From NCBI GenBank assembly GCA_963281255.1, contig OY725491.1, positions 248,001 through 312,000 of the forward strand: DNA of 64,000 nt, written 5' to 3'. The number at the start of each line of letters is the position of its first letter. The first letter of the stretch is position 1. Shown one piece after another: positions 9,591 to 31,234 of this stretch. The translations under genes were made by a program, and so were the position numbers. The DNA comes from Aphrocallistes beatrix. Its lineage: Eukaryota; Porifera; Hexactinellida; Sceptrulophora; Aphrocallistidae. The notes beneath the pieces were generated by a model that searched no databases, was not told the DNA's origin, and worked only from the letters and a program-made list of their open reading frames with translations.

Positions 9591-10270
9591 CTGTTTGCAG
9601 ACAGTCATTTGTGTCTCAGCAACAATTTGATCTAGGTCCAATTCCTTTTTTGTGATGAGATATTTAATAATTTGAAAATTGAACAAACTCATTGATATTA
9701 TTGGCTTAAATCTGACTTATCAGCTCACACTGATACTAAATATAGCACATAACTTAGTTCCAATTGGAACTAAGGGTTATTCCGCACACATCTGCCTGAG
9801 TCGTAAACGCATCCGAAATTAATTTCAGATAAATCGAACTTCAAATTCGATAATTCCAAAATGCGAGAAGCGTTGCAGTAGAGTTTTCTATTTATACTCG
9901 TCACCAACTCAGTTTCAGTTCCACATTGAGGCGCCAAATTGACTGGGTCTTTCCATATATAGCACTGACTGGATCTAAATTTAGAATTAGTTTATTATAC
10001 ATTTAATTTATAACTTATTCTATTTGATAGTCCAAAATGACTCAACTGGAAATGAGTAGCAAATTCATAGTCCAACTCGGTTAAGGTAGTGAGAATATCA
10101 CGTTATAGAAATATCATTCAACATTACAAAAAATATTGAAATTTTTGGTAAAAAAGTCGCCCCCCATGGAGTATTTGAGTTTCACACAACTTTGTGCAAA
10201 TTTGGATTTTAACAATTTTTTAATATTGGTTCCTTTGACGTGATTATCCATGGTTATAATTTTCCTCTTA

Positions 10271-10628: not shown

Positions 10629-13600
10629 AAGCTGAGTCTGTTCTGTCTCGAGCAGAACACAGGTCTACAGTCTCTGACTCGAAACGGTTTCTTAGCACAT
10701 TCCTCTGCATCTCCCGTCTCTATGCATCTCACATAGAACGCGACTGAATTGCTCTCACAGGATTCTGTGCACGTACTTACTACTCGATATTTCGACACTG
10801 AGCATTCCATTGTGCAGTTAGCGTTGCTACACGCCTGTACTTGCGTTGCATCTCCGTTACAGGAACTAACTGCAGGGTTTGGTTCCATATTCTCACACGT
10901 TCGGTTCCTGTGTTGCGTGCCACTTCCACAGGTCTGGGAGCATTCACTCCAGCCTGACCACTCACTCCACTCTCCAACACCTATAAATAGCAACCAATCA
11001 AATGTCTGTTTTGTCCATTGACTCCTTTAAGTAAGGACCGTAGGCGTTCAATCTTGGGTCCTGGAACTTGGGTCCATTGTGTATTATTGATATCTCGTAA
11101 TCCGCTCAAGTTAGACATGGAAGATGTATTATTGTCAAATAGGAAGTCGTATTTTTAGAGTCCATACGACTTCCTATTTGACAATAATACATTTCCCATG
11201 TCTAACTTGAGTGGATTACGAGATATCAATAATACACAATGGACCCAAGTTCCAGGACTAAGATTGAATGCCTACAGTCCTTACTTAAAGGAGTCTATGG
11301 TAATAAATATATTTATTTCCCAATGCAATTACATCTTTTTAATTATGCATGCATTTGATTGGTTGAAATTGCAATTGTATCTCTTTCTTTCTCCCATCTC
11401 ATTAATACCGTATTAAAGGTGTGAAAATATGAATATTTACAAACTGGAAGTAATGATATTTCGTGAAAAAGTATCAGATGCACATATATACCATATACGA
11501 GTATGGATTCTACAAACCAAATTGGGTTGAAATCGGACTGTTAAATTTCACAGCATTGTGCATACGGACATACATGCTACACCGTCCATGTCATAAGCTG
11601 TACATTGGAATTCGCTTACTAGCAACTCCCTTATTAGCAATATTGCTCTATTAGCAACCAATCTTCAGGTCCCAGGTGAAGATTTTGTGTTACTTCTGTT
11701 CCCTTATTAGCAACTTCGCGTATTGGCAACCATTTTATGAGCAAAACTCTAGTTGCTAATATGCGAATTACACTGTACTAGAGAGCCAATTACACTGTAA
11801 TTGGCTTATTAGCAATTCGAGTTTTGCTCATAAAATGGTTGCTGATAAGCGAAGTTGCTAATAAGGGAACAGAATTAACACAAGATCTTCACCTGGGACC
11901 TGAAAATTGGTTGCTAAGAGAGCAATATTGCTAATAAGAGAATTCCAATGTAGTCAATCTGATATGTTATACCTGTACATGGTTCCAGTTCACATTCCTT
12001 TGAGTTGATCCTAGCTCCAGGACAGGAGAGCGGGTTACTGGCATTGCAGACTCTCTCTCTCAGCTGGTTTCCTCTGCCACAGGTTCGAGAGCAAGTTGTC
12101 CAATCGGACCACTCACTCCACTCTGCTATAAATAGACAAGTATTCTCAGTTGAAATAAAATGGGAATTTATTGTGGCTGTTTTGTTAAGCTTAATTCTTT
12201 CATTAATTCCCTCTAACCTCCCTGAGGGACTACCAGCTGTTAACCAAGGAATGCTAGCTAAGTTAAGGCGAATATTTTGGGTTTGAAGCAGAAAATAGTG
12301 CGCTTCTTCTTGTGCTAAAAATAGGAACACTTTGCAATGGTATTTACTATAGTTCCGAAAATAGATTGTGGATTTTGCTAACTCATTTCCTGTTGAGTCA
12401 TTATTGGCGGGAATCCATAACAACAGGGTCTCTACTATAAATAGAATTGACCTTAAGACAAAATCAGATTTTAATTATTTACCAATCAAATTTTGAGCTA
12501 AAATATGGTTTTCCTACTATGAAGTGTTAGATTTGGACTATGGATTCTGCTGACTCATTTCTGGTTAGGTAATTTTGGGCGGGGAAGCCCTAAAAGTGTG
12601 GGGTCTATTCTATAAATAGAATTGACCCCTAGGCAAATCAGGTTTTAGTATATGTATATATTTGTTTATATAATAACTTACCACATTGGTTAGTGTTACA
12701 CGTTTCAATGCTATATTCCATTCCCTCACACTGTGGCTCTCCAATGGAATGTGTCACAGCTGTACATTCTCTTATTCTCGTTCTGATTCCACCGCCACAC
12801 ACTGAACTGCACTCTCCATACCCACCCCACTGACCCCAGGCACCAGTAGCTATAAATAGAATATGTATATAAATAATGCGAACCATTTCCTATGTTAATT
12901 GGTAAATTCAAATACAGTCTACTCCGCTTAATAGGATCACATCGGTCAGAGGGCATTTTGGCCCGATTAAGCGGAGAACCCTATTAACCGAAAATATTTT
13001 GTACTAGCTTCTATGTGTGAGAGCTTTTCCGGTCTAGCCAAAAGTGGCCCGATTAAGCGGTTGACACGATTAAACAGTGACCCTATTAAGCGGAGTCGAC
13101 TGTATTTGATTTGCAGTGTTCCTGGTCCTTTTAAAGTGTCCTATTTACTATGTATTTTGTTCGGTTAATTTTGCGTTCATTTAGCTAGATTTCCGCTTTT
13201 TGTTTTACATTCAAATTCTTCACGCTGATATATCCTGTTTGGAAGTGTGCTATTGTATAGCGTTGGAAGTACCATACACAGTGATAGAACTTCTTAACAC
13301 AAAAATACGGATACACACATGCCAGCTTGAGCCATGATAAGCGGGACATGGCGGGACGCAATAGAAAAGTATTATGCATAGAAACAAAAAAGCGGGACAT
13401 AATGGGGAAATTTCATGTAAAAGCGGGACACTCGTGAAGATTAGCTCAATAGGAGAGTGAGAAAAGCGGGATATCTCGCCAAAAACGCAACAGTTGGCAA
13501 GTATGCGGATAATACGGAGATATACGTATTCTCCTACAGAAAATAAATGCAAATCACTTCGATTAAAACGAACAAATTCCCACCGTCTTCTGGTGTTCAT

Positions 13601-14659
13601 ATTAACGAGGTTCTACTGTATATTTCATTACAAAATATTTAGAATACAAACAAACATTTTAATTCAGTTTGTTTACCTGCACACTTTGTTTGGTTGCACA
13701 GCTGGGATTCAGTATTGTTTCCTTGACAATCGGAACCACTTCCCGTTGGTTCCGGATTGTCACACCTCCTGGTTCTAGTTCTGCTGCCATTACCACACGT
13801 GACTGAACACTCAGCCCAGCTGTCCCATTCTCCCCAGCCTCCATCTATATCTACAAACAAGTATATATATAAACCTGAGGTGTGAAGTGGTTTATTGGTT
13901 ATCAAAGATGTTTGCAACGTGTACTCTATATTTTGTATGAATTCACTCGTAATATATACAGTCAACTCCGCTTAATAGGGCCACTGTTTAATCGGGACAC
14001 TTTTGGCAGGACCCGAATAGTTCTCACACATAGAAGCTAATGCAAAATATTTTCGGTTAATAGGGTTCTCAGCTTAATCGGGGCAAAATGTCCTTTGACC
14101 GATGTGACTCTATTAAGCGGAGTCGACTGTATTAACATTCCTTACCCCCAGGACAGTTGCTAAGCTCGCAGGTCCCCCTATCAATACTTTCTCCGACACA
14201 ATCCTGTCCAAGCAGCCCCTTGGTCGGGTTGTCACACCTCCTCCTCCTCTCACGGACCCCACTGCCACACGTCCCACTGCATTGTGTCCACTGATCCCAC
14301 CCACTCCAACCACCAGCCAGATCTAGTTGAGAAGAGTAGTCATGAATTGTGGTGCAGAGCTTAGAAGGAATGTCCGTACACTCAATCTTGAGAAATCTAT
14401 TCGTCCGATTTTTGCCAAATTTGGCGTTTGGGATCTCATGATGGTGTGGATGTGCACTTAATATTTTCCGGTTTTAAAGTATTTATATAGTATATATTTA
14501 TATTTTCACACCTTTATTACAAATCTATATTTGAGTTTTGAGAGTTGTAATTGCATTATTATTGAGTATTTCCTTGAGTAGCTTTTCTCACACGTAGAAG
14601 GATCTATTATAAGAATTTTAATCATATTTTAACACCTCTGGTGTCCTAATAGAACTACA

Positions 14660-14753
<94 letters not shown>

Positions 14754-17700
14754 GTTGTTGTTGTTTACATTAGCTACATAGCAAACGGACATAATGGCTC
14801 CAGGAGGGAAGAGTTGGGGAAACATAGCATACGTGAGACACATCATCTCTTACTCGATTAGTCCTTTCGAACAGAAAGTTTTCGCGGGCGCTTTCACACA
14901 GGGGCCAATCAATTTGTTCCGTAGAACAATGGAAGAAGCGCCGTTCGCGATTCCACCAATGGTTTGTGCGTATTTGATCTATTATTTTTCGATGCGGAAA
15001 CATAGACAGCTGCAACGAAAGCAACCAGAAGATTACACCCCCACTGATGATGATGATTAGTTATATAGGCGTTTAGGACTCTGTATTCTCTGTGATTTGT
15101 TTGTGTTTACCGATTATGCATCTCGTCAATAATTATACTTACGAATAGATTAATATTTTGTGTGTCTCGACGAATGTAAACCAAATTTTATATTCTCAAA
15201 AGTCATTATTGAGAAATGAAACTTTTGAAATGAACCAGGTTGAAGAGTTCCATAGTTTTATCATTACAAAGTGCTTTGACTATATTAACCAATCAGTTTC
15301 AAAGTTCATTATACATTTCTGTATTTGGTCATAATTATACATATTTTCTTTTTTTTACTGGAGTTAGCTATTGAAAGGTGTGAAAAACAATATACGAAAA
15401 ACTTTTTACAGAATATCGGTCTATCAACTATCTCTTAACATCTTTTATATTAAAACTCAATGGTTTTTTTGTTTGTTTGTTTGTGTAAGTTGATTTATGA
15501 ACTGGGAGGTGCTAGAAATGTGAAATTTGCCGCACAGGTAAATAATAATAAGTCTACAAGGGAGTTCGAAGACCTAAGCGAAATCTTCACACCTCACCGA
15601 GATAGGTGTCAAATTGTGCTGACCAATGAAATTCGATTATTTTATCATACCATTAAGATTAACTCACACAGAAAGCATGGAACTCTGTCACATCTTCGTG
15701 TCTCCACCTGATTGCACTCAGTATCCACTTCACAATCTCTGTGTCTCTGTCTGCGTTCTGTAGACACTCCACATGTGACGTCACAAGATGTCCACTGACT
15801 CCAGATACTCCATGCACTCGATGAGACTAAAAATATTGAGATTTAGATTAAATTAGATTGAGGGAAATCCATACGGTTAAGACATTTAGTGATAACTCTC
15901 TTACATACCTTGGCATTCTCCATGGTTACAATATTCTGTCTGATTCACAGCTCCAGGACAATCAACTCCTCCACCACTTGGTTCCGGATTGTCACACCTT
16001 CTAGTTCTGGTGTTAGTTCCGTTTCCACACGAGACTGAACAGCTGGACCAGCTGCTCCAACTCCCCCAACCCCCATCCTCTGGTACTATAAATAGAATGT
16101 GAATTTTTACCGAAGATAAGTCATTTTTCTATTTTTAGTCCATTTAAACTGTATCAAATCTCGAATTCATGAAAATTCACAACTTTTCATCCTTTTTTTT
16201 CTTTTGCCACTTTCAGCCAATCAGATTTAAGTTTATATGCATTGAGTTAGGTATAATCTTATTGGTCAAGCCAACTTTAATGCTCAATCCCTGGATTCTG
16301 ATTGGCTAATACAATTCAACACCTTTTGTGATAAGAAATCAGATTTTGGGTTAAGAATTCTATCATTTTGAGTCGCAGGAATTATAAAGCAATTTTTCTC
16401 AGAACTCAGGTTATGTACAGAATTGAATTTATTTCTTACCAACACAAGGTGGCCCGTTACAGGTGTCACTTTCGTATTCGTCACCTCCACACTCCTCTCC
16501 TCCATAGAGTGGCAGAGGAGTGTCACACTGTCTGTATCTGAATCTGTCACTCGTGCCACAGAATGCTGAACAGGCTCCCCACTCCCCCCAACTACCCCAG
16601 CCTCCATCCACTACACAACAATACTCACACAAACGAAGTTATTAATTGCCATGGCAAGTTAAAGGCAATTTTGAAAGGTATGGTGGAAATAGTTCGACTT
16701 TCCAAAAAAGGAAATACAGTCGACTCCGCTTAATCGGGCCACTTTTGGCAGAACCGGAATAGCTCTCACACATAGAAGCTAATACAAAATATTTTCGGTT
16801 AATAGGGTTTTCCGCTTAATCGGGCCAAAATGTCCTCTGACCGATGTGACCATATTAAGCGGAGTCGACTGTAGTTCACATAAAAACCACCATTATTTCC
16901 TAATGATAAAAAGTCGAACCATTTCGTAAATCTGCAATTCGAACTATTTTCTTTTTCAAAAAGTCGAATCATTTCCGCATTACCATTTTGAAGTTAGCAT
17001 TACATTACAATCCATGGTCCAATGTTCAAATAGAGGCCATTCCCTTAGTATGTAGAATGCCATGGCCTAAGTAACTTAGAATAATAAGGTTATTACAGCT
17101 GTCTGGAACTAGAATCCGTCAGGAATGAGGTTATGTATGTATGATTATCAATTATAGTGCAAATGCACGACATAATTTGGACATAAATCCACCTTTAAAG
17201 TGGTCCATGGTGCCTTGTACGATTGTAATGTGATATTTTAATGTAATTTTTGATATTTGCTGAGGTCTTTCAAGTATGACTAGTGTGAATTACTCTGCAT
17301 CCATTCAGAATTAGAAAGTTTGACACATACCTGGGCATTCTCCCTGGTTACAGTATTCTGTCTGGTTCACAGCTCCAGGACAATCAGCTCCTCCACCACT
17401 TGGTTCCGGATTGTCACACCTTCTAGTTCTGGTGTTAGTTCCGTTTCCACACGAGACTGAACAGCTGGACCAGCTGTTCCAACTCCCCCAACCCCCATCC
17501 ACTGGTACTATAAATAGAATGTTATTACTAGGATTTACATTTACATTTTTAATCCTTATATGGCGTAGATTTATACTCAGGGTTTGATTATTCATATTTT
17601 CATACCTTGGCTCAAACCATTTCAAACTGTGTTAACCAATGAAATTGCAGGGTTTTGATATTACAGTTGAAGTTGAATATAATTGTTCACTAAGGATAGG

Positions 17701-20700
17701 ACATAACTCAATGCAAATATAATCATAATTACTCTACACTTGAAATCTGATTGGTTAGGAACTTGGTTATCTCGTACTACAAATGTTTATATCCCAAAAT
17801 TGCGTTATTATTCTAGGTTTAAAAAATGTTATTCCTTACCAACACAAGGTGGTCCGTTACAGGTGTCACTTTCGTATTCGTCACTTCCACACTCCTCTCC
17901 TCCATAGAGTGGCAGAGGAGTGTCACACTGTCTGTATCTGAATCTGTCACTCGTGCCACAGAAAGCTGAACAGGCTCCCCATTCCCCCCAACTACCCCAG
18001 CCTCCATCCACTAAGACCGAAAATATTGTCAGAAGAAAGTATGTACAGTCAACTCCGCTTAATCGGGACAAGTCTCCAGGAACGGAATGGTTCCCATACA
18101 TAGAAGCGAATACTAAATTTCATCGGTTAATTGGGAACTAATCGGGACAAAATATCTGGGACCAAAGTGTCCCGATTAAGCGGAGTCACCTGTATTCAAT
18201 TCAGCCAATCAAAATTTACGTCTAGACAGTGATTATAACTTGAAATCTGATTGGTCAATATGAAGTTTAGACACAACCCTCAATCATATAAAGAATTTAT
18301 TTAGTTCCAATTTTCAATTTGATCCAATGGAATTTCTATGAACGATAAATCCATACGGTTAAGACATTTAGTGATAGCTCTCTTACATACCTGGGCATTC
18401 TCCATGGTTACAGTATTCTGTCTGGTTCACAGCTCCAGGACAATCAACTCCTCCACCACTTGGTTCCGGATTGTCACACCTTCTAGTTCTGGTGTTAGTT
18501 CCGTTTCCACACGAGACTGAACAACTGGACCAACTGCTCCAACTCCCCCAACCCCCATCCTCTGGTACTATAAATAGAATGTTTATAAACCACCTGAATC
18601 TCTGAAACATTGGTTGTGCCACCAAATTTGAATGCATTAATATTATAGAAAGTTTGGTGGGAAAATTACATAATTGAAACTCAGCTATAAATAGAGTATT
18701 CAATCTGGAACTTTTCAAAGTTAGTTCCAATTCCAATACTCGCCTGTGGTGGTGCAGCTCTGTGTGTTGCAAGCCAATACCCGACTTGATTGGCCTAAAC
18801 ATCTCTTCCCTCCGTGGAGTGGAGCTGGGTTGTTGCAGACTCGGTAGTCTAGCTTGTAGCCTCCTCCACAAGTGGCAGAGCAACTGTACAGCTCAATCCA
18901 CTCACTCCATCGCCCATCAACTATAAATAGAACGATGTTTATATACTGAGTATTGTTGAATTTCACTCAAAATTCCCCATTTTAATTATATCAAGATTTC
19001 TTACCTGGACAAGGTTCCTCATTACAAATCTCTTCTTGAATATTGTTTCCAACACATTCCATTCCTCCATTAGTTGGTTCCGGATCATCACACCTCCTAG
19101 TTCTATATCTAGTTCCATTCCCACAGGTGAGGGAGCATGTACTCCAATCCTCCCAATCACTCCACTCTCCACTCACTAGAAATAATAATTTGTCTATTAT
19201 ACTCGTTTCGAAAAGAAATACCGTATTTCCCTGAATAAGCGCCCGGGCTCGAATAAGCGTCGGACGCCGGGGCATTTTAGTTCTCTGAACATCATATCAA
19301 ACTAGTATTCTCAGCAGTGGCATAGATACAAGTGCTTTTTGAAACATTACATTATCCTTTTTTAATAGAAATAACATTCTCAGTTGTGGCAAAAATAAAA
19401 GTGCCAGTCAATGTAGTAAATAAAAAAAAGAGCGCCGGGTCAAAATAGCGAATGAAAAAATTAGCGCCGGGTCTAAAGGGTGCACGAAATAAATAAGCGC
19501 CCGGGCGCTTATTCGAAGCAATACGGTACACCAAAATTTGACTTTTTTGGCGGGACTTTCGATTATTCAGGGAATTGTTTCATGCGTTTTCGTATCTGAC
19601 AAAGGCTAACTGTACCTAATTTTAGAATGTTTTCTCTAGGAATGATTATTTGTTTGTTTGAACTATTTTCTCTTAAATTTTTCTCTGCCATTAATCCTTA
19701 CGTGATAGTTTACCTGGACAAGTTCCTTCGTTACAAATCTCTTCTTGAGTGTTGTTTCCAACACATTCCATTCCTCCATTGGTTGGTTCCGGATTATCAC
19801 ACCTCCTAGTTCTGTATCTAGTTCCATTCCCACAGGTGAGGGAGCATGTACTCCAGCTCTCCCAATCACTCCACTCTCCATTCACTATAAATATGTTGAT
19901 AGTAGAGATGGATCGTTTCATCTAAATTATCTAAACCTTTCGGTCCACTTTGGTCGATAAAGTGGATTTTTAATGGCGCTTTTAGCCAATAGTTTGCAAT
20001 CCTTGGTTATCTCGGTGAGTGTTTTTTCGTGTAAGTACACAATATTTGTTGTTGTTGTTGTTTACTTATTTACATCCGATACTTTGTTCTACGTATTTCT
20101 CTTTAGATACACATTTCTAAATTACTTGTCATTATGTATTATAATCACACCTGCACAAGTTCCTTCATTACAAATTTCTTCTTGAGTGTTGTTTCCAACA
20201 CATTCCATTCCTCCATTAGTTGGTTCCGGATCATCACACCTCCTAGTTCTGTATCTAGTTCCATTCCCACAGGTGTTAGAACATGTACCCCAATCCTCCC
20301 AATCACTCCACTCTCCACTCACTAGAAAGAACAATGTGTCTATTATACTCGTTTCGAACGGAAATACACCAAAATTTGTACTTTTTTTACGGGACTTTAT
20401 TCGACTATTCAGGAAAACTATTTCCACCATACCGATTTTTTTTAAAAAAATATTTTCTCTTAAATTTGTCTCCGTCATTAATCCTTACATAATAGTTTAC
20501 CTGGACAAGTTCCTTCATTACAGATCTCTTCTTGAGTGTTGTTTCCAACACATTCCATTCCTCCATTAGTTGGTTCCGGATCATCACACCTCCTAGTTCT
20601 ATATCTAGTTCCATTTCCACAGGTGTTAGAGCATGTACCCCAGTCCTCCCAATCACTCCACTCTCCATTCACTAGAAATATATTTCAGATATAAATGACT

Positions 20701-21487
20701 TTTCAATGAACACACGAGTGATTCGATAAATTGTAGAAGGGAATAATTTACAATTAATTATGCAACTCATTTCCGGTTAAGTCATTTTGGGCGGGGAAGC
20801 CATAGAAATGCGGGGTCCAAGCTATAAATAAAATGGACCCCAGGTCATTGATGGGTTTTAATATCATTTCTAGAGGTAGCAAACAATACTTTGGGGTGAT
20901 TATCCTAGGGTGGGTTAATATCCGAGTCTATACGGTATGGTACCTCACTTCCTAATTCAGTACCTGGACACACTTCTTCATTACATATTTCTGTCTCCAA
21001 TTGAGCGCCAACACATTCCATTCCTCCATTGGTTGGTTCCGGATCATCACACCTCCTAGTTCTGTATCTAGTTCCGTTTCCACAGGTGTTAGAACATGTA
21101 CCCCAGTCCTCCCACTCACTCCACTCTCCATTCACTATAAATATATTTCAGATATAAATGACCTTTCAATGAACACACGAGTGATTCGATAAATTGTAAT
21201 TATATGTTATATGTCAACTGTTTTCTAGTAGAATGTTCTTATACCAGGCATCTACTGTAATACTATTATACTTCTGATATGTATATATACTGAATTATAC
21301 TATATTTTCACACCTGCACAAGTTCTTTCATTGCAAATCTCTTCTTGAATATTGTTTCCAACACATTCCATTCCTCCATTAGTTGGTTCCGGATCATCAC
21401 ACCTCCTAGTTCTATATCTAGTTCCATTCCCACAGGTGTTAGAACATGTACTCCAGTCCTCCCAATCACTCCACTCTCCATTCAAAA
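10629..21487 (-). CDS. TSP1-repeat exon array of the ADAM/TSP1 gene (exons 12-29)
   Basis: Exons, each starting and ending in phase 1: 21487-21314, 21134-20964, 20671-20501, 20321-20151, 19884-19714, 19175-19005, 18920-18744, 18567-18391, 18010-17840, 17507-17331, 16610-16440, 16085-15909, 15826-15668, 14322-14146, 13850-13677, 12849-12682, 12125-11973, and 10980-10629 (phase 2 end). Typical repeats read GEWSDWEDWSTCSNTCGNGT, with the WxxW C-mannosylation and CSxTCG O-fucosylation motifs seen in other animals. The first six exons are near-identical. 18567, 17507 and 16085 (GGWGSWSSWSSCSVSCGNGT type) alternate with near-identical 18010 and 16610 (SAFCGTSDRFRYRQC type). Exon 18920-18744 ends in a GC donor (ACAG|GCGAGT). 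The last exon has one full and one poor repeat. Confidence 0.88.
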
Positions 21488-24400
21488 CTAAATATATAAG
21501 GACCTATCAAATCTCCAGACCCAAAAGTGTTGAAGGAAAACACCTCATGAGTGTTTGTTTTAATTAATAAACAGAACACATATTAACTATATAACAATCA
21601 ATAAATATAGTTATTCATGTCTCTTTCCAAAAGTATCCAATAAACTCAAAGTCTTGACCACTCCCTGCCCATTGGTCCATTTTAGATCAACCACTTACAT
21701 CGTAAAACTCGAATAATCTTCCAAAAAAGGTTGCCCCTTAGAATTTATTTTAAACAGATTACTGTCTCTGTTTATTAATTAATTAATAATAATTAGTATC
21801 TAAAAATATCTCATCGCCCTACAATTTGATACTTTAACTATGGTTGACAACTCACTGGTACTTTGGCATGCATCTCCCACTCTGTCTGAGTCACACACAC
21901 ATTCCTGTGTCTGTGTACAAGTGCCGTAACCGGAACATTCCAGTCCGTTGGTTCCAGTTGGGCAAAGTGGCACATATATTGTACTCAGACTGACACATTG
22001 TCGTTGTAAACACACCTATAAACAAGTCGGATGCATCCTAGTTACAAACAGTGCTATGAGGAATGTATTAATATTTACCTTATCAGTTCCACAAACTGTT
22101 CCGTCCTGTACGTAGCCGACGACTTCATTTGTTGCTCTTGTTACTGCGTAAACACTCCTAAACAAACATTATTTATATTGGAATGATACGATTATGATAT
22201 TGGATATTGATAGTACCAGGGACAAGGAATTTTAGTCAAATTATCACTATATCTAATATATCACTATATCTAATAACTACTGTTTTAATAATACAGTAGG
22301 CTCCGCTTAATAGAGTCACATCGGTCAGAGGACATTTGCTCCGATTAAGCAGAATACCCTATTAACCGAAAATATTTTGTATTAGCTTCTATGTGTGAGA
22401 GCTATTCCGGTCCTGCCAAAAGTGGCCCAATTAAACAGTGACCCTATTAAGCGGAGTCGACTGTAATAATAATAATAATAATAATTATTATTATTATTAT
22501 AACAAACTTCGGGGCTTTTCTGTGTAGCTACAAACAATTCGTGTCTGCATTAGTCGCCCTTAGGGCGCCTCTTCGTTCTTTCTTAGAAAATTATTTACGT
22601 TTATACTCTGATTTGGGAAAACCTTTTTATTTTAAATTAATCCAACTACACTCATAATCAACCAGTACTATGCTTTAGATATCAAGGGGTCCACAGGATT
22701 TGAAAATTGTATTACGGTTAATAGGAGGGGGTCCACAGAATATAGGAAAATTGCTATAGGGAGTCCACAGTCTAGTAGAATGGTTGAAAACCGCTGTGCT
22801 AAAGTAATCGAGTATCTTAGGCATCATTTGAGTATTCAGTTCAATTTGATCTATTCTGTCTTAGATAATTTGATAGATTTTTATTTGTTTAAAACTAGAA
22901 GCGATATGTCAACTCTCTACAAGGAATACGGTGTCCCTGTCTTGATGAAGCCACTGAATGCCACTCTGCCACTCGTGTACCTCACCAACGGATACAAGAC
23001 GGCAGAACTTAACAGTAAACTGTCCCTATCATTCCAAGGCTTATCTGAGATTGAGTTTCTAGAGGAATTCACTGGCTTAAAGTACTTGTCTCTGGAATGT
23101 AATCTGGTCGCGAAGATAGAAAACATTTCACACATGAAGCATCTACAATTCCTAGATTTGCAGCAGAATAAGATCGAAATTATTGAGAATTTAGAGAAAC
23201 TGACTGAGCTGAAATACCTTAACCTTTCTAAAAACTCAATTTCGAAACTAGAGAACCTTTCTTGCCTCACGAAACTTCACACCTTGGAAGTGTCCCATAA
23301 CAACCTTCACTCAGCCAATGACATTACAGAATTGATCATGTGTCGCTGTATAAGCGTACTATACATGACACACAATAAACTATTTGACACCAAAGTCATC
23401 GATGTGTTGAGTCAAATGCCGGAGCTAAATGTGCTAAAATTAGAAGGAAACCCGGTTATAAATAGTATCACTTATTATCAGAGAACTTTAGTTTGTGCAC
23501 TGCCAGCATTAAAGTGTTTGGAAGGCTGTAATGTGTCCGATGTCACTCGTGCCACTTCTATGGAGTATTTCTGTGGGGGACTTTTAGCTGAGAGAGCGGA
23601 GCAGTTGCGATGGAATCGAATGGAAGAAGAGAAAATGCGAAAAGGAGTTGATTCACTATACACTGCATTAGTTCTTGGCCGTGAGAATAGCAAACAGGAT
23701 GATAGCCAATCAAATGAGTCAGATTTTGGTGACTTTGATGTTATTGAGGCAGAAGAGGTGAGGAATGGGTTTGATGGAAATATCTCTAACTTTGAAACTG
23801 GAACTGTTGGCGAGGGAAGTTCTATATTTAGTGACAGTTCTGATGAACTGGATTCAGTTGGAACGAATTTGTTGGACACTGGACAATCGGATTTCTTTCC
23901 TCCCTCACAACCAGTGGAATGTTGTACTATGAAGCCTACCACCAACTCTGTTAGTTCTAATTCTCCTAAACTCGGAATAGAACTAAATCCGAATAAGAAC
24001 AGTTCGGATGAATCGAGTGACGCTGAACTTTTTGAAGTGGTTACCACTCCTTCTGGAGATCCCATTATCTTCCTCCCCACCGCTTCATTCCTGAGTCAGG
24101 AATACATGTGACCTGGACTCAATACGACCGATCGAGCGAATACCTAGATTGGTGAATTCTTACTTCATAAGGTCTTTTCTATTACGAATTTTATATTTAT
24201 ATTTCCTAAAATCATTGCTTGTCCCTTTCTTAAAGTTATACATACATATATACAGAGATTTCCTTACCTACCAGCATGGGACACATTCTATTTATAGATT
24301 GTACCCCGAATTTAAGGCATTTTCACACCTTACTAAATGGTATTAATATCTCAACTGTAATCAATCACTTTGCTGGCAAACAGAATTTGAGTCTAAATGG

Positions 24401-25354
24401 ACTTTTTAATGTGCTATAAGGAAATAATGGATCATATTGCATAGTTATAAACGGTACATAGACATCTTCAACATTGGTTATAACAGTGGTTTACTATAAA
24501 GAGTAGTTTGAGGTTCCAAGAGCTAAGTACAGTCAACTCCGCTTAATCGGGACAAATGTTTATTTGGGACAAGTCTCCAGGAACGGAATGGTTGCCTTAC
24601 ATATAAGCCAATAGTAAATTTCATCGGTTAATTGGGAACTCCGCTTAATCGGGACAAAATATCCGGGACCAAAGTGTCCCGATTAAGCGGAGTCACCTGT
24701 ATATGGTGAGTAGATATTGGTTATAGTGATAGTACCAGGGACAGGGAATTTTGGTTAAATTATCACTATATTCAATATCTATTGTACTTACTATTGAACA
24801 AGATGGTACTAAATCGTAAAAAACATTTGGTGGCATTTTCTAGCATAAATGGCGGGCATTTCTGGTTCTATTTTGTCACCTGCATATGAACGTATTCGTT
24901 CCGTCCGATATCTTGATCCTCCTGTTACTGATATATCTGTATCCAGAGGTGTTGAACAGCTGATCCGCATTGACACAGTAGAGTAACCCACACTTCACGT
25001 CCCTAGCAACATAAGTGGAGTTAGGAATGTATGCTATGCATTTGTATAACATTTAGACTTACTCTCTGTCACATTTTCTGTATACTTTCACGTCATTTAC
25101 ATAATTTTCTCCACAATTCCCATACAGATTTCCTCCCTTGTTAAAGCTGTAGCATTCTTCAAAGCCATTTAATGCTTCTAAAAATAGAGTTTATAAATGG
25201 AGATATTTACATGTTTATATTATTGTTTATACCTACCTTCTCCATACAGAGATTTACATAGGTTGCTACTATTTTGACACCTTCCATTGAAGCAATAATT
25301 CTAAAAATACAGACACATGTCAATAAAAATATTATTAGAACACTGGTCTATAAT

Positions 25355-25401
<47 letters not shown>

Positions 25402-27706
25402 ACCTTGTTGTCATTGCAATGTGTCTTGTTACTTTTGTATAAATCAATTGGGCACTAAAAGAAAGTTTTAAGAAACTTAACACTAATATTTTTAATTTTA
25501 ACTTCTAAATTTAGAACATCACTTTTCCTACGGTTTTGGTACAAATACAATTCTCACCGAATTAGTGTTTCCACTGCAAAGCTCACTGAAATCGCATTCA
25601 TCTCTTGATTCTCTGCACTCCACTCCTCTCTCTCTAAACTAATATAGCCACTGTACTAAATATAGAACTGTGATGCCACTATACACAGTGGCGTAACCAG
25701 GGATACCCACACACTCAGGATTTAAGAAACCAAATTTTGTATAAATATTGCATTTATTCTGTCACTAAATGGATGCTGTGTCTTTGGAGGGAATTTGTAT
25801 ATTAACATAACTGCTGATTAGGAGAGTTCGTACTTTATGGACACATGCTCCCACTTCAGGAATAAAACCCCTGAGCTCCAATAGTCCAATAGGGGGCTTA
25901 CAGTTCCCCCTGACCCCAGCTTGGTTGTTGTACCCCCATCAGAAGCTGTAACAAGGGATTATCTAGGAGTGCGAGACGCTCCTTTAGGCGTATGATTTTA
26001 ATCCCGAAAGTGTTTAGGAGCGGAAATTTTAGAATATTAACCCAATTTATCCTATATTTTTTTCGATTTAGGCGTATGAAAATTTATTGGTTTGAGACTG
26101 GGAGCGTATCTTGGAGGGCTGTGGTTGTACCCATAGGCGCCAAACCCGGGGGGAACTGGGGCTGGGAGGGCTCGAGCCCCCCCTGGATTCGAAGATGGTC
26201 CATAGACGCAATACAAAATTTAGGACTAAGCCCCCCCTGGAACCCCGAAATTGTCCTTAGATTTCGAAAAGTTTGGCGCCCATGGTTGCACCCCATCAGA
26301 AAATCCTGGACGAACCAATTACTATACACATTTATACTTTTTAGTTATTTTTCTACTGAAATATTTACTGTTATAATTATAGTATAATCTTACTCTACAA
26401 GTATTTCTGTCACAGCATTCTCCTGTGACACAATCTATGCCACTTCTCCATCTACATGTTGTCGCGTTGCAACAATGGTCTTCACAAACCTAAATATGAT
26501 CATACAACATATATATACGTATTCTGGAAAAGGTGTGAAAATGTGATTAACTGTTGGAACTCACTTCTTCTGTCCCACAATCACACTCCTCTCCCTCTTC
26601 CACCAAGTTATTCATGCACTCTAAATTATAAGAATATTTTGGTCATCAGAATTGACCACAATAAATGAATTTTATTAACTACGAATTTGTCTACAGCACA
26701 CTCCAACCAACTTTAGATCTTAGCCAATCAAAGTCTTAACATAGGATTATGCTTTGTGCTCTGCCATCCAATCTATTGCCATACATTTATCTCGTTGTAA
26801 TGTATTAAATGTGAACTATTCGAAGCCAATAGATTTCGATCTTTGAGTGAATTCCTATCTAAAATATTCTCGTGATCGTGCCATCAAAACATAGTGCCAC
26901 TTGTTCACACTTTTAGAATCCCTTTTCATGAATCATCCAATCAGCTATAAGAGTTGGTTCAAAGCATTTTAAGATTACCAAACTTCCACAGCTGGTTTCT
27001 TTCCTATTTATCTGCCAGGCTTTAGTTCCAATTGGAACTAGTGTATTTACCTGGACACTTGGGTCCGCAGGAACGGTACTGTGTACGTGTGGCTCCTCGA
27101 CTACACCCAGTCTCCCCAGCCAATGAGCATCGAGAGTTCCTCTCCTGTGTCCCGTCACAGCCTGAGCAGTCACTCCACTCCGTCCATGTGCTCCAACCGC
27201 CGTCTGATTGGCTGTCAGCTATTACGTAAATAGATTAGCACAGTTCTCTACCCTCCAATAGTCTCTCCATATTCATTTGACATGTGAATATCAAGTTACT
27301 GAACATAACTCGACCATCATTGAGTGGAATTCTCAATAGTGGAGATTTTATATATTACAAAAGCTAACTCCCATCCTTGAATTACCAGTCTATTAATTTT
27401 CAAGCAAAATCTCATTTCCATTATGCGATCTTCCCTGTAGTAGGAAATGTGTAGAAGTATCGAGGATGCGACAAACGCAAAGCCTCAACCCAATAATTTT
27501 CTGTCCCCCTTTGTCGCACCTTGTCCCCCCTTGTCGCACCTTGTCCCCTCTTGTCGCACCCTAATATTCAGTTGTCTACCCCACTGGATATATTCCCAAT
27601 TTAGAATGAGATATATTTTTAGGAGTGAACAAGTTGAATACACAATTATTTCTAATTCACCTGTTGCTATCAAAATTGCTGTAAGAAAGATGAGCAAAAC
27701 TTTCAT
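10629..27706 (-). CDS. Secreted TSP1/disintegrin/ADAM-Cys-rich/EGF protein without a protease domain
   Basis: One minus-strand gene of 29 phase-compatible exons encoding about 1,430 residues. Order: signal peptide, TSP1, disintegrin, ADAM cysteine-rich domain, EGF-like segment, 18 TSP1 exons (the last also holding a degenerate second repeat). Every junction keeps frame, and most acceptors read TATTTATAG or TATTTTTAG. Disintegrin and cysteine-rich parts are ADAM-type, yet no HExxH reprolysin site was found on minus between the signal peptide and the disintegrin part, and the exon phases leave no gap. By analogy with secreted TSP1 proteins it is probably an extracellular adhesive or matrix molecule. 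Introns contain UQCRQ and DNAAF1 on the opposite strand. The 3' end is uncertain (see 9425-9590). Confidence 0.82.
11603..11775 (-). repeat. pogo-like MITE, TTAGCAAC family, inverted copy
   Basis: Inverted relative to 38524. Runs from CATTGGAATTCGCTTACTAG to a CACTG end with TA flanks. Together with 11793-11950 it forms an imperfect inverted repeat of about 350 bp beside a TSP1 exon. Confidence 0.8.
11793..11950 (+). repeat. pogo-like MITE, TTAGCAAC family, direct copy
   Basis: Same orientation as 38524. Shares GAGTTTTGCTCATAAAATGG and TTCACCTGGGACCTGAA. Lies 22 bp from the TSP1 exon ending at 11973. Confidence 0.8.
12366..12650 (+). repeat. GGGCGGGG/CTATAAATAG repeats, copies 3 and 4 in tandem
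   Basis: Two copies at about 12366-12470 and 12540-12650 in the same orientation within one intron. Each has GCTAACTCATTTC-type, GGCGGG and CTATAAATAGAATTGACC blocks. Confidence 0.75.
12915..13102. repeat. pogo-like MITE, CAGTCGACTCCGC family
   Basis: TA-flanked, with both CGCTTAATAGG / CCTATTAAGCG ends. Confidence 0.85.
13318..13505 (-). repeat. hAT-like MITE, CATACTTGCC family, copy 3 (inverted)
   Basis: Reads CATGCCAGCTTGAGCCATG to CAGTTGGCAAGTATG on plus, the reverse complement of the other copies, with the same GCGGGAC blocks. Confidence 0.75.
13959..14129. repeat. pogo-like MITE, CAGTCGACTCCGC family
   Basis: TA-flanked full copy, ending 16 bp from the donor of the TSP1 exon at 14146. 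Confidence 0.85.
14659..14762 (+). repeat. (ATT)n/(TTG)n microsatellite
   Basis: About 31 ATT units then a few TTG units, ending about 30 bp before the UQCRQ start codon. The poly-Asn frame opposite is an artefact. Confidence 0.95.
14794..15060 (+). CDS. UQCRQ: UQCRQ/QCR8, complex III subunit 8
   Basis: Complete intronless frame of 88 residues. The stretch VRHIISYSISPFEQKVF matches the family signature (human MRHVISYSLSPFEQ). A single membrane span (PPMVCAYLIYYF) follows, then a basic-acidic tail ending in four aspartates. It is a small inner-membrane subunit of the cytochrome bc1 complex, next to cytochrome b at the quinone site. The gene lies inside an intron of the minus-strand ADAM/TSP1 gene, between the TSP1 exons at 15668 and 14322. 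The nearby microsatellite and a TTTCACACCT site at 14501 may be part of its promoter. Slightly longer than the human protein (82). Confidence 0.93.
   Translation: MAPGGKSWGNIAYVRHIISYSISPFEQKVFAGAFTQGPINLFRRTMEEAPFAIPPMVCAYLIYYFSMRKHRQLQRKQPEDYTPTDDDD
16677..16984. repeat. GGTAATGCGG-family MITE split by a pogo-like MITE
   Basis: Inverted copy of 5239-5388, running GGTATGGTGGAAATAGTTCG to TCATTTCCGCATTACC. It is interrupted at 16717-16871 by a complete TA-flanked pogo-like MITE, which is therefore younger. Confidence 0.8.
18046..18192. repeat. pogo-like MITE, shorter AATCGGGAC subfamily
   Basis: Ends CAGTCAACTCCGCTTAATCG and CGATTAAGCGGAGTCACCTG, TA-flanked. Closest to 24530-24699. Confidence 0.8.
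19221..19526. repeat. Mariner/pogo-like MITE, CCGTATTTCCC family
   Basis: TA-flanked, with ends CCGTATTTCCCTGAATAAGC and GCTTATTCGAAGCAATACGG and repeated GCGCCGGGTC blocks inside. Confidence 0.75.
20757..20862 (+). repeat. GGGCGGGG/CTATAAATA dispersed repeat, copy 5
   Basis: CAACTCATTTCCGGTTAAGT then GGGCGGGGAAGCC and GCTATAAATAAAATGGACCC. The subtype matches copies in the EGF cluster (52827, 55652). Confidence 0.75.
21856..27706 (-). CDS. N-terminal module of the ADAM/TSP1 gene (exons 1-11)
   Basis: Exons: 27706-27661 (start and signal peptide MKVLLIFLTAILIAT), 27218-27051 (TSP1, GGWSTWTEWSDCSGC), 26620-26565 (VEEGEECDCGTEE), 26489-26394 (CCNATTCRWRSG), 25629-25558 (RGVECRESRDECDFSELC), 25454-25404, 25300-25237 (NYCFNGRC), 25177-25063 (CYSFNKGGNLYGNCGE), 25002-24880 (DVKCGLLYC), 22157-22079 (VQDGTVCGTDK), 22015-21856 (VCLQRQCVSL plus an EGF-like CSGYGTCTQTQECVCD). 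The motifs follow ADAM disintegrin and cysteine-rich domains in order. All joins are in frame. The fifth exon's acceptor is one of several overlapping AGs, and I chose the only one keeping frame. The prodomain and reprolysin domain that normally precede the disintegrin domain are replaced by a single TSP1. Confidence 0.85.
22294..22463. repeat. pogo-like MITE, CAGTCGACTCCGC family
   Basis: Full TA-flanked copy, followed by an (AAT)n/(ATT)n stretch to 22500. Confidence 0.85.
22687..22796 (-). repeat. hAT-like MITE fragment, CAGCGGTTTTCAAC family
   Basis: Inverted relative to 4045, ending TGGTTGAAAACCGCTG. The ATG at 22780 lies inside it, so it is not a credible start for the following gene. 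Confidence 0.7.
22906..24111 (+). CDS. DNAAF1: DNAAF1/LRRC50-like axonemal dynein assembly factor
   Basis: Intronless frame of 401 residues from the ATG at 22906. The open frame extends up to 22780, but that part overlaps a transposon. The domain begins with LNSKLSLSFQGLSEIEFLEE, followed by about six SDS22-type leucine-rich repeats (FLDLQQNKIEIIENLEKLTE, YLNLSKNSISKLENLSCLTK, LKLEGNPVIN). An LRR-cap (YYQRTLVCALPALKCLEG) and the helix AERAEQLRWNRMEEEKMRKG follow. This order is that of DNAAF1, which preassembles dynein arms in the cytoplasm of ciliated cells. The tail is acidic and Ser-rich, as in the family, but the protein is shorter than human (725). It sits inside a 2.7-kb intron of the minus-strand ADAM/TSP1 gene. 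Other SDS22-type ciliary proteins are the main alternative. Confidence 0.8.
   Translation: MSTLYKEYGVPVLMKPLNATLPLVYLTNGYKTAELNSKLSLSFQGLSEIEFLEEFTGLKYLSLECNLVAKIENISHMKHLQFLDLQQNKIEIIENLEKLTELKYLNLSKNSISKLENLSCLTKLHTLEVSHNNLHSANDITELIMCRCISVLYMTHNKLFDTKVIDVLSQMPELNVLKLEGNPVINSITYYQRTLVCALPALKCLEGCNVSDVTRATSMEYFCGGLLAERAEQLRWNRMEEEKMRKGVDSLYTALVLGRENSKQDDSQSNESDFGDFDVIEAEEVRNGFDGNISNFETGTVGEGSSIFSDSSDELDSVGTNLLDTGQSDFFPPSQPVECCTMKPTTNSVSSNSPKLGIELNPNKNSSDESSDAELFEVVTTPSGDPIIFLPTASFLSQEYM
24530..24699. repeat. pogo-like MITE, shorter AATCGGGAC subfamily
   Basis: Ends CAGTCAACTCCGCTTAATCG and GATTAAGCGGAGTCACCTG, TA-flanked. A sequence just after it (ATAGTACCAGGGACAGGGAA at about 24727) recurs at about 22210, so the two ends of this intron share a further short repeat. 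Confidence 0.8.
25357..25402 (+). repeat. (TTG)n microsatellite abutting a splice donor
   Basis: About 15 TTG units. On minus the intron begins GTAA directly followed by (CAA)n, so the array starts within 4 bases of the donor of the exon ending at 25404. Confidence 0.9.
26136..26280. repeat. GGCGCC-ended MITE
   Basis: Perfect short inverted ends GGCGCCAAAC / GTTTGGCGCC. The interior (CATAGACGCAATACAAAATT, GGAACCCCGAAATTGTCC) is shared with the insert in the foldback loop at 1912-2020. The neighbourhood 25687-26330 also begins with CAGTGGCGTAACCAGGG, a typical DNA-transposon end. Confidence 0.75.
26531..26550 (+). promoter_or_regulatory. T-box-like composite motif
   Basis: AGGTGTGAAAATGTGATTAA in an intron of the ADAM/TSP1 gene. 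One of a recurrent set: a T-box half-site followed by ATGATTAA-like sequence. Confidence 0.4.
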
Positions 27707-28179
27707 TATAGAAATACAATTCGCTGAGACTATTTCTAATATAAATATTGTGTCACTGCAATATTCCACTCGACCATATTCAACAGCTGCTTGGATTCCT
27801 ATTGGCTAATTACATTCTAAAGTTTTAATTTGTCTAGGTCGTTGTGATACAATATTGTATAAGGAAGTTAATATTAATTGATAGATCCATGTTTCTAATT
27901 TCCTCTAATAACCTCAGACAAGATTTCGGTCTTTCAATTCATTATTTGAGTTTAATTAACGTTATTATAGCATTACCTAATAACACGCTGCTATAACTCA
28001 ATAGATTGTTTATAATTATAATTACAAAGAGAACTAATGCATTTAGTCTTTATTGATAATTAAATTTTGAGCCTAAAATATTACGCGCCTGATCATTGGA
28101 TTATAAATTGCGCGCTCTAGATATAGTATATTTTAAATTAACGCGCCTTAATGGAACTATAATTGTAGCGTATATCTAT

Positions 28180-29359: not shown

Positions 29360-30751
29360 CTAACTCACGAAATGGTGTAAAAGGTACTTAGGTTGTATAT
29401 CAATTTTCAGGTAAATGCAGTTGTCACGGAAATATTTACTTTTCTCTGTCAACAGTCTTGAATGGCTGATGAACTTAGGATACCCGTATCCTGAATTATT
29501 GATTCCCTGCTCACTCGACATAAATTTCTTCTCATTCTCCTCCGTATTGAACGAACTCACTACATAGTGATCAGAATCAGCTGTTTGATTCAGAAGTGTG
29601 AATTTGACTGTGCCTCTAAAAGGCCACTCTAAATCTACATCATAGTTTCCTCGCTGTAGGTAGAGGTACACCGACACATGGTTGCATTTCCCGCCCGAAT
29701 TTCCATTCATATATATCTGAATACAGAACTTGTAACCTTTGGTGCTGGTATAAAACGGCTTACTGAATAGGATTATATTTTTCTTGATTTTTTCTTTAAC
29801 ATTTGTGATTTTCCAAAGAAACTTCCCATCAATCGCAATTGTGTCTTCGGGCAAGAGTCGTTTTTCAAGATTCACTTTCTGTGACGTCATAAGTGCATTC
29901 GCTTCTTCTAAATTGGCATCAAGGTTCGTCACAGTTTCTGTCAATTTCTCGTTTTCGCAAGTCATTTTGTCGACCACATCCGTCAGTGTCCTGACTTTAT
30001 CAGTCACAAGCTGGAGATGTTGCATTTGGTCGTTCTGCATGTGATCGCGGACATTTTGTCGCTCGACTAGTGCTTGGCAGCCGAGATTCTCGTAGCAACA
30101 CCTCACCAAACTTAGGGGACACTCCTCTTCCAGATGTGTCGGTATCTGACTCCGAGGGATGGCATCCACGTGGCACGCGTTCGGACACTTTATCGGGTAG
30201 CTGGCGCAGTTAAGGGTACGATGCTCCTCCATATGAATCCGTTTGGAAGTTTCTTTGCAAAATTCGCAAACTACTTTGAAAAATCCGCATTCTTCAACTT
30301 CATGCGTCTCTAGGATTTTCCGCATCATGATTTTTTCACACCCCAAGTGGCACTTCACATTCACAAACCCGCACGTTTCAAGGTGTTCACGACCGGAAAC
30401 AAGTGGTCCCACCCAGTTACACCCTCTTGAATACAGTGGACACTTTATCTCCATTTCTTGTATCTTTGCTTCGATAAATTTGTCGCGATACAAAGTGTCC
30501 TTTTCTATAACAATTTTGTCGAGTGGGCACTCTTCAAAGTTTTCAATGCAAGGCTGGCAGAAAATGTGTCCGCACTCGTGAATTTGAAGTGGATCTACAA
30601 ACACACCTCCACAAATAAGACAAGTAAATAGTTGTGATAGACTGGCACGCGAATTGTCAAAATTGAAAATTTCACTTTTATACCCAGCGTATGTGTCGTC
30701 TACTCTAATCAATAAAAGATCATTAGTAAGTTCAGCTGTTTCTTTGTCCAT
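29360..30751 (-). CDS. TRAF-family adaptor/E3 ligase, intronless
   Basis: Complete frame of 463 residues. The RING (about residues 44-77) has CLIC, HECGHIFC, QPC and CPLD. The final Cys-x2-Asp pair is the TRAF-type C3HC3D pattern. Several TRAF zinc fingers follow (about 95-240: CPLYSRGCNWVG, HLETCGF, CEFCKE, CPNACH, HLEEECPL). Then a coiled coil (about 245-300) and a MATH/TRAF-C domain (about 305-455: GKFLWKITNVKE, YKFCIQIYMNG, VSVYLYLQRGNYD, LEWPFRGTVKFTLLNQ). TRAFs trimerise beneath receptors and signal through ubiquitin towards NF-kB and JNK. Closest by layout to TRAF4/TRAF6. Lack of introns suggests retroposition or lineage intron loss. Confidence 0.92.
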   Translation of the reverse strand: MDKETAELTNDLLLIRVDDTYAGYKSEIFNFDNSRASLSQLFTCLICGGVFVDPLQIHECGHIFCQPCIENFEECPLDKIVIEKDTLYRDKFIEAKIQEMEIKCPLYSRGCNWVGPLVSGREHLETCGFVNVKCHLGCEKIMMRKILETHEVEECGFFKVVCEFCKETSKRIHMEEHRTLNCASYPIKCPNACHVDAIPRSQIPTHLEEECPLSLVRCCYENLGCQALVERQNVRDHMQNDQMQHLQLVTDKVRTLTDVVDKMTCENEKLTETVTNLDANLEEANALMTSQKVNLEKRLLPEDTIAIDGKFLWKITNVKEKIKKNIILFSKPFYTSTKGYKFCIQIYMNGNSGGKCNHVSVYLYLQRGNYDVDLEWPFRGTVKFTLLNQTADSDHYVVSSFNTEENEKKFMSSEQGINNSGYGYPKFISHSRLLTEKSKYFRDNCIYLKIDIQPKYLLHHFVS

Positions 30752-31234
30752 TATTCTACTTCATTGAAATATAAGCCTTTGCTTTCCGAAACCCATTTAT
30801 TAACTTCGAACCTTAAATGCCTACAATGCCGTTGAAACCATGTGTCCATCAACAGCTGTGTCAACGGATTCGATGAAGCATTATCATTTACATTACCGAT
30901 AATAAATAATCTAAATTGTTATGTAAATAAGATATGTCAATAATATATTGGTATCACTACTTGATTTGTAATGTGAGTCTGAAACCCTTGGTATGTCTGC
31001 TACCTTAATTGTAATTCAATCATTTGATAATTCTGAAAGTTGATTGGTGATAGCTACTAATATCATCTTCGATTTCTCTCATTCCATTATATTGCAAAAT
31101 AAAAGAATCCTCAATAACATTACATGAAATCACAATCTACATTATGTACCACTTCGACCATGTTATGAGTGTATACTAGTCATATAACATTATAACCATG
31201 GATTAATACAAAATCAATATACATTAATTAATTA
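30752..31234. other. Intergenic spacer, nothing recognised
   Basis: AT-rich DNA between the TRAF start codon and the Mutator-like element. It should hold the TRAF promoter, but no TATA box or other element stands out. Confidence 0.5.

Follow-up and report, generated by a model that had tools for sequence, protein, structure and literature searches.

The window analyzed here, a 64,000-nucleotide stretch of the genome of the glass sponge Aphrocallistes beatrix (contig OY725491.1, hereafter C4), encodes on its minus strand, from position 27706 to position 9770, a protein in which an ADAM-type module of disintegrin, cysteine-rich and EGF domains is combined with an array of TSP1 domains, with no detectable protease domain. 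The same arrangement is seen in two homologs. We believe that this is probably a secreted, non-proteolytic extracellular-matrix or adhesion protein that was built by exon shuffling.

Gene organization and domain architecture

The protein-coding model comprises 30 exons that encode 1498 residues and end in a stop codon. The order of domains is signal peptide, divergent TSP1-like domain, ADAM disintegrin domain, ADAM cysteine-rich domain, EGF domain, 18 TSP1 domains and a unique C-terminal domain. The phases agree at all junctions, and 28 of the 29 introns are GT-AG; the remaining one, at 18743, downstream of TSP1 exon 7, is GC-AG and has the sole non-GT donor. The exons, all on the minus strand, are as follows:

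27661..27706, minus: exon 1, start codon and signal peptide, phase 0-1 (first ATG; aligned in both homologs)
27051..27218, minus: exon 2, divergent TSP1-like domain at the position of the ADAM prodomain and protease, phase 1-1 (profile comparison; 50% and 53% identity to the homologs)
26565..26620, minus: disintegrin exon 1, calcium site II residues (splice and phase check, Pfam)
26394..26489, minus: disintegrin exon 2 (splice and phase check, Pfam)
25558..25629, minus: disintegrin exon 3, containing the DECD loop and the greater part of the site III calcium signature (splice and phase check, Pfam)
25404..25454, minus: ADAM cysteine-rich exon 1 (splice and phase check, Pfam, PDB sequence match)
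25237..25300, minus: ADAM cysteine-rich exon 2 (splice and phase check, Pfam, PDB sequence match)
25063..25177, minus: ADAM cysteine-rich exon 3 (splice and phase check, Pfam, PDB sequence match)
24880..25002, minus: ADAM cysteine-rich exon 4 (splice and phase check, Pfam, PDB sequence match)
22079..22157, minus: ADAM cysteine-rich exon 5, following a 2722-base intron (splice and phase check, PDB sequence match)
21856..22015, minus: end of the cysteine-rich domain and EGF domain (EGF_2 E-value 0.00094, 19.9 bits against a cut-off of 22.1)
10629..21487, minus: 18 TSP1 exons, each entered in phase 1 (18 Pfam TSP_1 stretches in the full-length protein)
10980 to 10629, minus: the last of these TSP1 exons, which also encodes a Cys-rich extension and exits in phase 2 (gene model)
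9770..9974, minus: final exon, C-terminal domain and stop codon (conserved in Oopsacas)

The in-frame chain between 27706 and 21856 that had been proposed in a sequence-only reading of this DNA was recovered in its entirety, all eleven exons having splice sites and agreeing phases, and the count of 18 further TSP1 exons was borne out by the Pfam matches. An in-frame TAG at 27808 lies 34 codons upstream of the start codon, with no other ATG in between, and a signal peptide, identified by eye, begins directly at the start codon. No membrane anchor was detected after the signal peptide: the highest mean Kyte-Doolittle value over 19 residues after residue 30 is 0.93, so that no stretch is hydrophobic enough for the transmembrane segment of membrane ADAMs. 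Upstream, the nearest gene recognized in the same orientation is that of a TRAF protein, encoded in one exon (29363-30760) 1.65 kb from the start. The 2722-base intron that separates cysteine-rich exons 4 and 5 harbors, in antisense orientation, a leucine-rich-repeat frame (22897-24108, plus strand; Pfam LRR_9 and LRR_4) that, by eye, resembles an axonemal dynein assembly LRR protein.

In a Pfam search of the first 401 residues, the Disintegrin (E-value 3.2e-15) and ADAM_CR (4.2e-19) domains were identified, followed by the EGF_2 match just under the cut-off and by TSP_1 (1.9e-12) for the repeat right after EGF. The full-length scan yielded 18 TSP_1 stretches for the 19 TSP1 domains, with the six-Cys WxxW pattern. 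ADAM_CR appeared in the scans of the N-terminal piece and of the homologous transcript described below but not in those of the full-length window protein and the Oopsacas protein, a dropout that, in our view, may be caused by the HMMER composition filter on long Cys-rich proteins. Among the sequences in the PDB, the disintegrin-to-EGF block matched those of ecarin, VAP1 and ADAM22, the last over residues 1-270 of the 272 submitted.

The sequence-only reading placed one TSP1 domain before the disintegrin domain; its TSP1-like character holds, given six Cys, the WxxWxxW motif and a profile match to ten of the downstream repeats (probability 94.7%, over 27 columns only), but the domain is divergent and sub-threshold in Pfam (E-value 0.35 in the window protein, no match in both homologs). 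In the same genome, an exon at C1:8826174-8826341 is 46% identical to this domain (E-value 0.016) and adjoins an astacin-like frame with TSP1 units. This astacin-like frame (C1, about 8826.4-8827.2 kb, minus strand; L033 467-1348) has, by eye, HLIFH where HExxH is expected, is followed by a TSP1 unit and perhaps encodes an inactive astacin. The final exon has a single match in its own genome, namely itself, and is identical to the Oopsacas protein in 37 of 67 positions; a Pfam match of this exon to a herpesvirus glycoprotein family (E-value 0.009, below the cut-off) was dismissed as a chance similarity. No ADAMTS cysteine-rich or spacer domain was found in the window protein at E <= 1; this is a weak test because the ADAMTS frame from the same genome, submitted as 910 residues, itself scored only 0.23 with ADAMTS_CR_3 and showed no spacer match.

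Homologs and phylogeny

Protein searches, which were length-ranged and dependent on shared words, so that absence elsewhere is weak evidence, retrieved 31 distinct proteins (P0001-P0031). Judging by the listed Pfam domains, 27 of these contain a reprolysin-type domain and two (P0015 and P0017) consist of TSP1 only, and the other two combine TSP1 and disintegrin domains without a protease: the Oopsacas minuta protein annotated as 'Coadhesin' (P0001) and a EukProt Trinity transcript (P0012). In both, the signal peptide, TSP1-like, disintegrin, cysteine-rich, EGF and TSP1 domains form one chain, in the order seen in the window protein. The Oopsacas protein, whose gene set was, according to an excerpt of PMC10280926, predicted with the aid of transcript-read mapping, is 55% identical to the window protein in an alignment that includes the signal, TSP1-like, disintegrin, cysteine-rich, EGF and C-terminal regions, and conservation of the domain order at this level of identity in another species argues against a chance arrangement. 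The assembled transcript, labeled 'ORF type:complete', has the same order from the signal peptide to the TSP1 array and stops after the TSP1 repeats, lacking the C-terminal domain that the Oopsacas protein shares with the window protein. The two homologs differ from the window protein in the number of Pfam TSP_1 stretches, 11 in P0001 and 6 in P0012 versus 18. The start codons of all three sequences are aligned. As to the concern that exon 27661-27706 and the TSP1 exon at 27051 could belong to another gene, both occur in one chain with the disintegrin domain in each of the two independent homologs, one of them an assembled transcript, and we assign them to this gene. An AlphaFold model of P0012 has a mean pLDDT of 32 and was not used.

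The identity between the window protein and P0001 and P0012, respectively, is 50 and 53% in the TSP1-like domain, 60 and 59% in the disintegrin domain, 64 and 62% in the cysteine-rich domain minus the hypervariable region (HVR), 45 and 59% in the HVR (with bounds set by us) and 58 and 55% in the EGF domain. In a phylogenetic tree of 22 sequences, the three TSP1-disintegrin sequences group together (100/99); the tree leaves the position of this group among the ADAMs open and carries a long-branch warning on the 332-residue protein from the same genome described below. P0011 was omitted from the tree by choice, P0018 by the E-value cut of 1e-15, and P0019-P0031, which were found later, are likewise absent; P0015 and P0017, for which no match reached E <= 1e-3, are also outside the tree. 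The glass sponge form may have evolved by loss of the protease from an ADAM-TSP1 fusion or by separate shuffling, between which the tree does not discriminate.

ADAM-related genes in the same genome

The A. beatrix genome encodes two full-length ADAMs with the HExxHxxGxxH motif (C1:5589748 and C1:7444132 regions). Each is encoded in a single open reading frame, 745 residues long in one case and 909 in the other, in contrast to the 30-exon disintegrin/TSP1 gene. A separate protease with an ADAMTS-like arrangement contains HEIGHLLGMHHD together with TSP1 domains. There is also a second protease-free disintegrin protein, a 332-residue single-exon frame (C1:7263630-7264628, minus strand; L005 823-1821), with an ADAM_CR match (3.6e-22) and a disintegrin match that scores 29.1 bits alone (cut-off 35.1) and exceeds the cut-off together with neighbors. 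It has a signal-like start, an EGF-like Cys pattern recognized by eye and a C-terminal hydrophobic stretch, and apparently is of the membrane type.

These genes bear on the possibility that the window protein is a regulator or decoy, its protease-free module competing with the catalytic ADAMs of the genome for substrates or receptors, or inhibiting them. The two ADAMs with HExxHxxGxxH are present in the genome, and the second protease-free disintegrin protein looks membrane-bound; nevertheless, we regard such a role as rather unlikely, given that the 18-repeat TSP1 array and the secreted form fit a matrix function better and that the window protein is only 36-37% identical to the closest ADAMs from the same genome.

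The disintegrin module and the TSP1 array

With the calcium-site consensus given in part of PMC4885070, the signature of calcium site III is exact in the window protein and both homologs, and all three retain the binding side chains of site II, with the Gly of CGN replaced to yield CMN or CTN. Because the residues with which ADAM disintegrin domains bind calcium are retained, the module should fold. The disintegrin loop is DECD, which conforms to the ADAM-type (D/S)XCD pattern; RGD, KGD and LDV do not occur anywhere in the window protein. The ADAM disintegrin loop is described as packed and sterically inaccessible in an excerpt of PMC4885070, and this, together with DECD in place of RGD, makes integrin binding through the loop unlikely. 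A special role of the HVR was considered and rejected: this region is no more conserved (45 and 59%) than the disintegrin domain and the rest of the cysteine-rich domain (59-64%), so that no specific partner site is marked. Integrin beta profiles produced 8 matches in the genome, on C1, C7, C11 and C17, so that candidate cell receptors are available; five alpha and three beta integrins of Oopsacas are reported in PMC10280926. Judging from these motifs, the disintegrin block is more likely to be a stiff arm that binds through its cysteine-rich face than an RGD-type integrin ligand.

In favor of an adhesive role, the excerpt of PMC4885070 states that P-III venom enzymes yield disintegrin/cysteine-rich fragments which, isolated and free of the protease, modulate adhesion of cells. 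According to the same excerpt, the calcium residues have been lost by most precursors of P-II venom disintegrins. A secreted disintegrin for defense or directed at prey, used like the venom disintegrin-like proteins, might be suggested by the best sequence matches with solved structures, which include P-III venom enzymes as well as ADAM22. These matches, however, reflect common ADAM descent, and the absence of RGD, the retention of the calcium residues and a long TSP1 array that fits the matrix render this interpretation improbable.

TSP1 domains bind components of the matrix and glycans. In the array, TSP1 exons 1, 3, 4, 5 and 6 show 91-95% DNA identity among themselves, exon 2 is 85-86% identical to exons 3 and 4, exons 8, 10 and 12 are 96-97% identical, and exons 9 and 11 are 97.7% identical, which indicates that the array grew lately by tandem duplication. 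The recent duplicate sets lie in 21487-15909, and the array length may vary between individuals. The O-fucose motif, C-X(2-3)-(S/T)-C-X2-G, is present in 14 of the 19 TSP1 domains.

Absence of a protease domain

No reprolysin or propeptide match at E <= 1 was obtained for the full-length protein, in agreement with the expectation that the joined exons would match Disintegrin, ADAM_CR and TSP_1 without reprolysin. Specifically, neither a reprolysin domain with HExxHxxGxxH nor an inactive remnant is present in the window protein, and Pep_M12B_propep, the ADAM prodomain, is missing at the same threshold. The two ADAMs from the same genome, employed as positive controls, scored 5.1e-44 and 9.6e-47 with Reprolysin; their Pep_M12B_propep matches are above the cut-off in one case and just below it in the other. 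The earlier statement that the minus strand contains no HExxH is not correct as worded: there are two in the window, at 30580, within the RING finger of the TRAF protein, and at 38228, within a 46-residue frame. Neither fits HExxHxxGxx(H/D), and they are not metzincin motifs.

The contigs of the genome were also scanned with the reprolysin-type profiles PF01421, PF13582 and PF13688, which produced 5, 7 and 8 matches, respectively, on C1, C7, C8, C10 and C12, and none on the window contig C4. The PF13582 and PF13688 scans do recover multi-exon genes; a locus on C10 with a frame reading HELGHNFGSPHD was missed by the PF01421 scan and found by the other two, and the disintegrin scan (PF00200) did not retrieve the disintegrin exons of the gene described here. 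Because six-frame scans can miss split exons, seven ADAM proteins were compared with the window by tblastn. All matches located wholly or mainly before the disintegrin domain had E-values of at least 1.6, and the disintegrin, cysteine-rich and EGF exons were matched, the best at 7e-9. In these searches, the 24-residue third disintegrin exon had E-values from 4.7e-5 (in a linked set) to 5.8, so that a single short protease exon could likewise have scored weakly, and the ADAM10-type query matched the disintegrin exon only at 1.3. The reading of the protein as a non-protease is upheld by the lack of reprolysin-type matches in the protein, the window and the scans of C4; for want of a protease, we place it in neither the ADAM nor the ADAMTS family.

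A catalytic ADAM/TSP1 enzyme, with protease exons that were missed, lie far upstream or are reached through alternative promoters, would be compatible with the escape of split domains from six-frame searches, both at this locus and on C10. Moreover, the Nematostella protein Nv791, as listed in an excerpt of PMC4877951, combines disintegrin, ADAM cysteine-rich and TSP_1 domains in one protein, as here, and, unlike the window protein, also contains reprolysin, propeptide, F5/F8C and fibrinogen-related domains, so that an ADAM-to-TSP1 fusion retaining the protease exists elsewhere. No upstream metalloprotease exon was found, though: the start codon follows an in-frame stop and opens directly into the signal peptide, the TRAF frame lies 1.65 kb upstream, both homologs start at the same signal peptide, and neither the PF13582 and PF13688 scans of C4 nor tblastn in the window revealed a match, which makes an enzyme highly improbable. 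Least probable is a chimeric gene model in which a neighboring gene contributes either the TSP1 array or the exons for the signal peptide and the TSP1-like domain: phase 1-1 TSP1 exons can be joined to almost any phase 1 border, but P0001 and P0012 carry everything from signal to TSP1 in one chain, P0001 with the C-terminal domain as well.

Functional and evolutionary implications

The window protein shares the disintegrin, cysteine-rich and EGF blocks with the ADAM family, including ADAM22 and the P-III snake venom metalloproteinases, but, unlike ADAMs, lacks the prodomain, the reprolysin domain and the membrane anchor, and has TSP1-type domains on both sides of the module. The ADAMTS-like proteins are similar by analogy, being secreted, TSP1-containing relatives of a protease family without the protease region, and share the ancillary domains of ADAMTS (PMC10499240, in excerpt); in contrast, the module of the window protein is the ADAM disintegrin/cysteine-rich/EGF unit and, for this reason, we do not classify it as an ADAMTS-like member. 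In Clavelina, LOC143471228 (P0002) carries three disintegrin/cysteine-rich/EGF units behind one protease, two of them without a protease of their own; unlike the window protein, it retains one reprolysin domain, and TSP1 is not among its listed domains.

Under the favored interpretation as a secreted, non-proteolytic matrix or adhesion protein, the disintegrin block would fold into a calcium-stiffened arm as in ADAMs and present its cysteine-rich face to a partner on the cell surface or in the matrix, whereas the TSP1 array would form an extended matrix- and glycan-binding rod, the length of which would change via tandem exon duplication. The protein would thereby link cells or matrix components without cutting them; the adhesive character is predicted from the domain content. 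More tentatively, and with a probability that we consider low, glass sponges might have evolved a small set of protease-free, ADAM-derived adhesion proteins, one secreted (this gene) and one of the membrane type (C1:7263630-7264628); in syncytial tissue, the module would be dedicated to the cell-matrix interface, as a receptor or ligand, and this protease-free family would have arisen independently of the route from ADAMTS to ADAMTS-like proteins.

This architecture is not described in the titles and abstract openings of the open-licence papers listed, which is weak evidence of novelty, supplements not being covered. Two papers on glass sponge genomes use none of the terms disintegrin, thrombospondin and coadhesin in their main text, and no protein of this kind is described in the excerpts of PMC12549020, PMC6526912 and PMC7853314. 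The automatic label 'Coadhesin' conceals the ADAM part of such proteins.

Most studies of the disintegrin/cysteine-rich modules of ADAMs concern modules linked to a protease, and it is a matter of debate whether the modules by themselves function in adhesion. A conserved, naturally occurring protein that combines this module, its calcium residues and the EGF domain without a protease would allow a direct test of the adhesive role. The findings also suggest that, in addition to the ADAMTS-like route, early animals had an ADAM-type route to matrix proteins that lack a protease.
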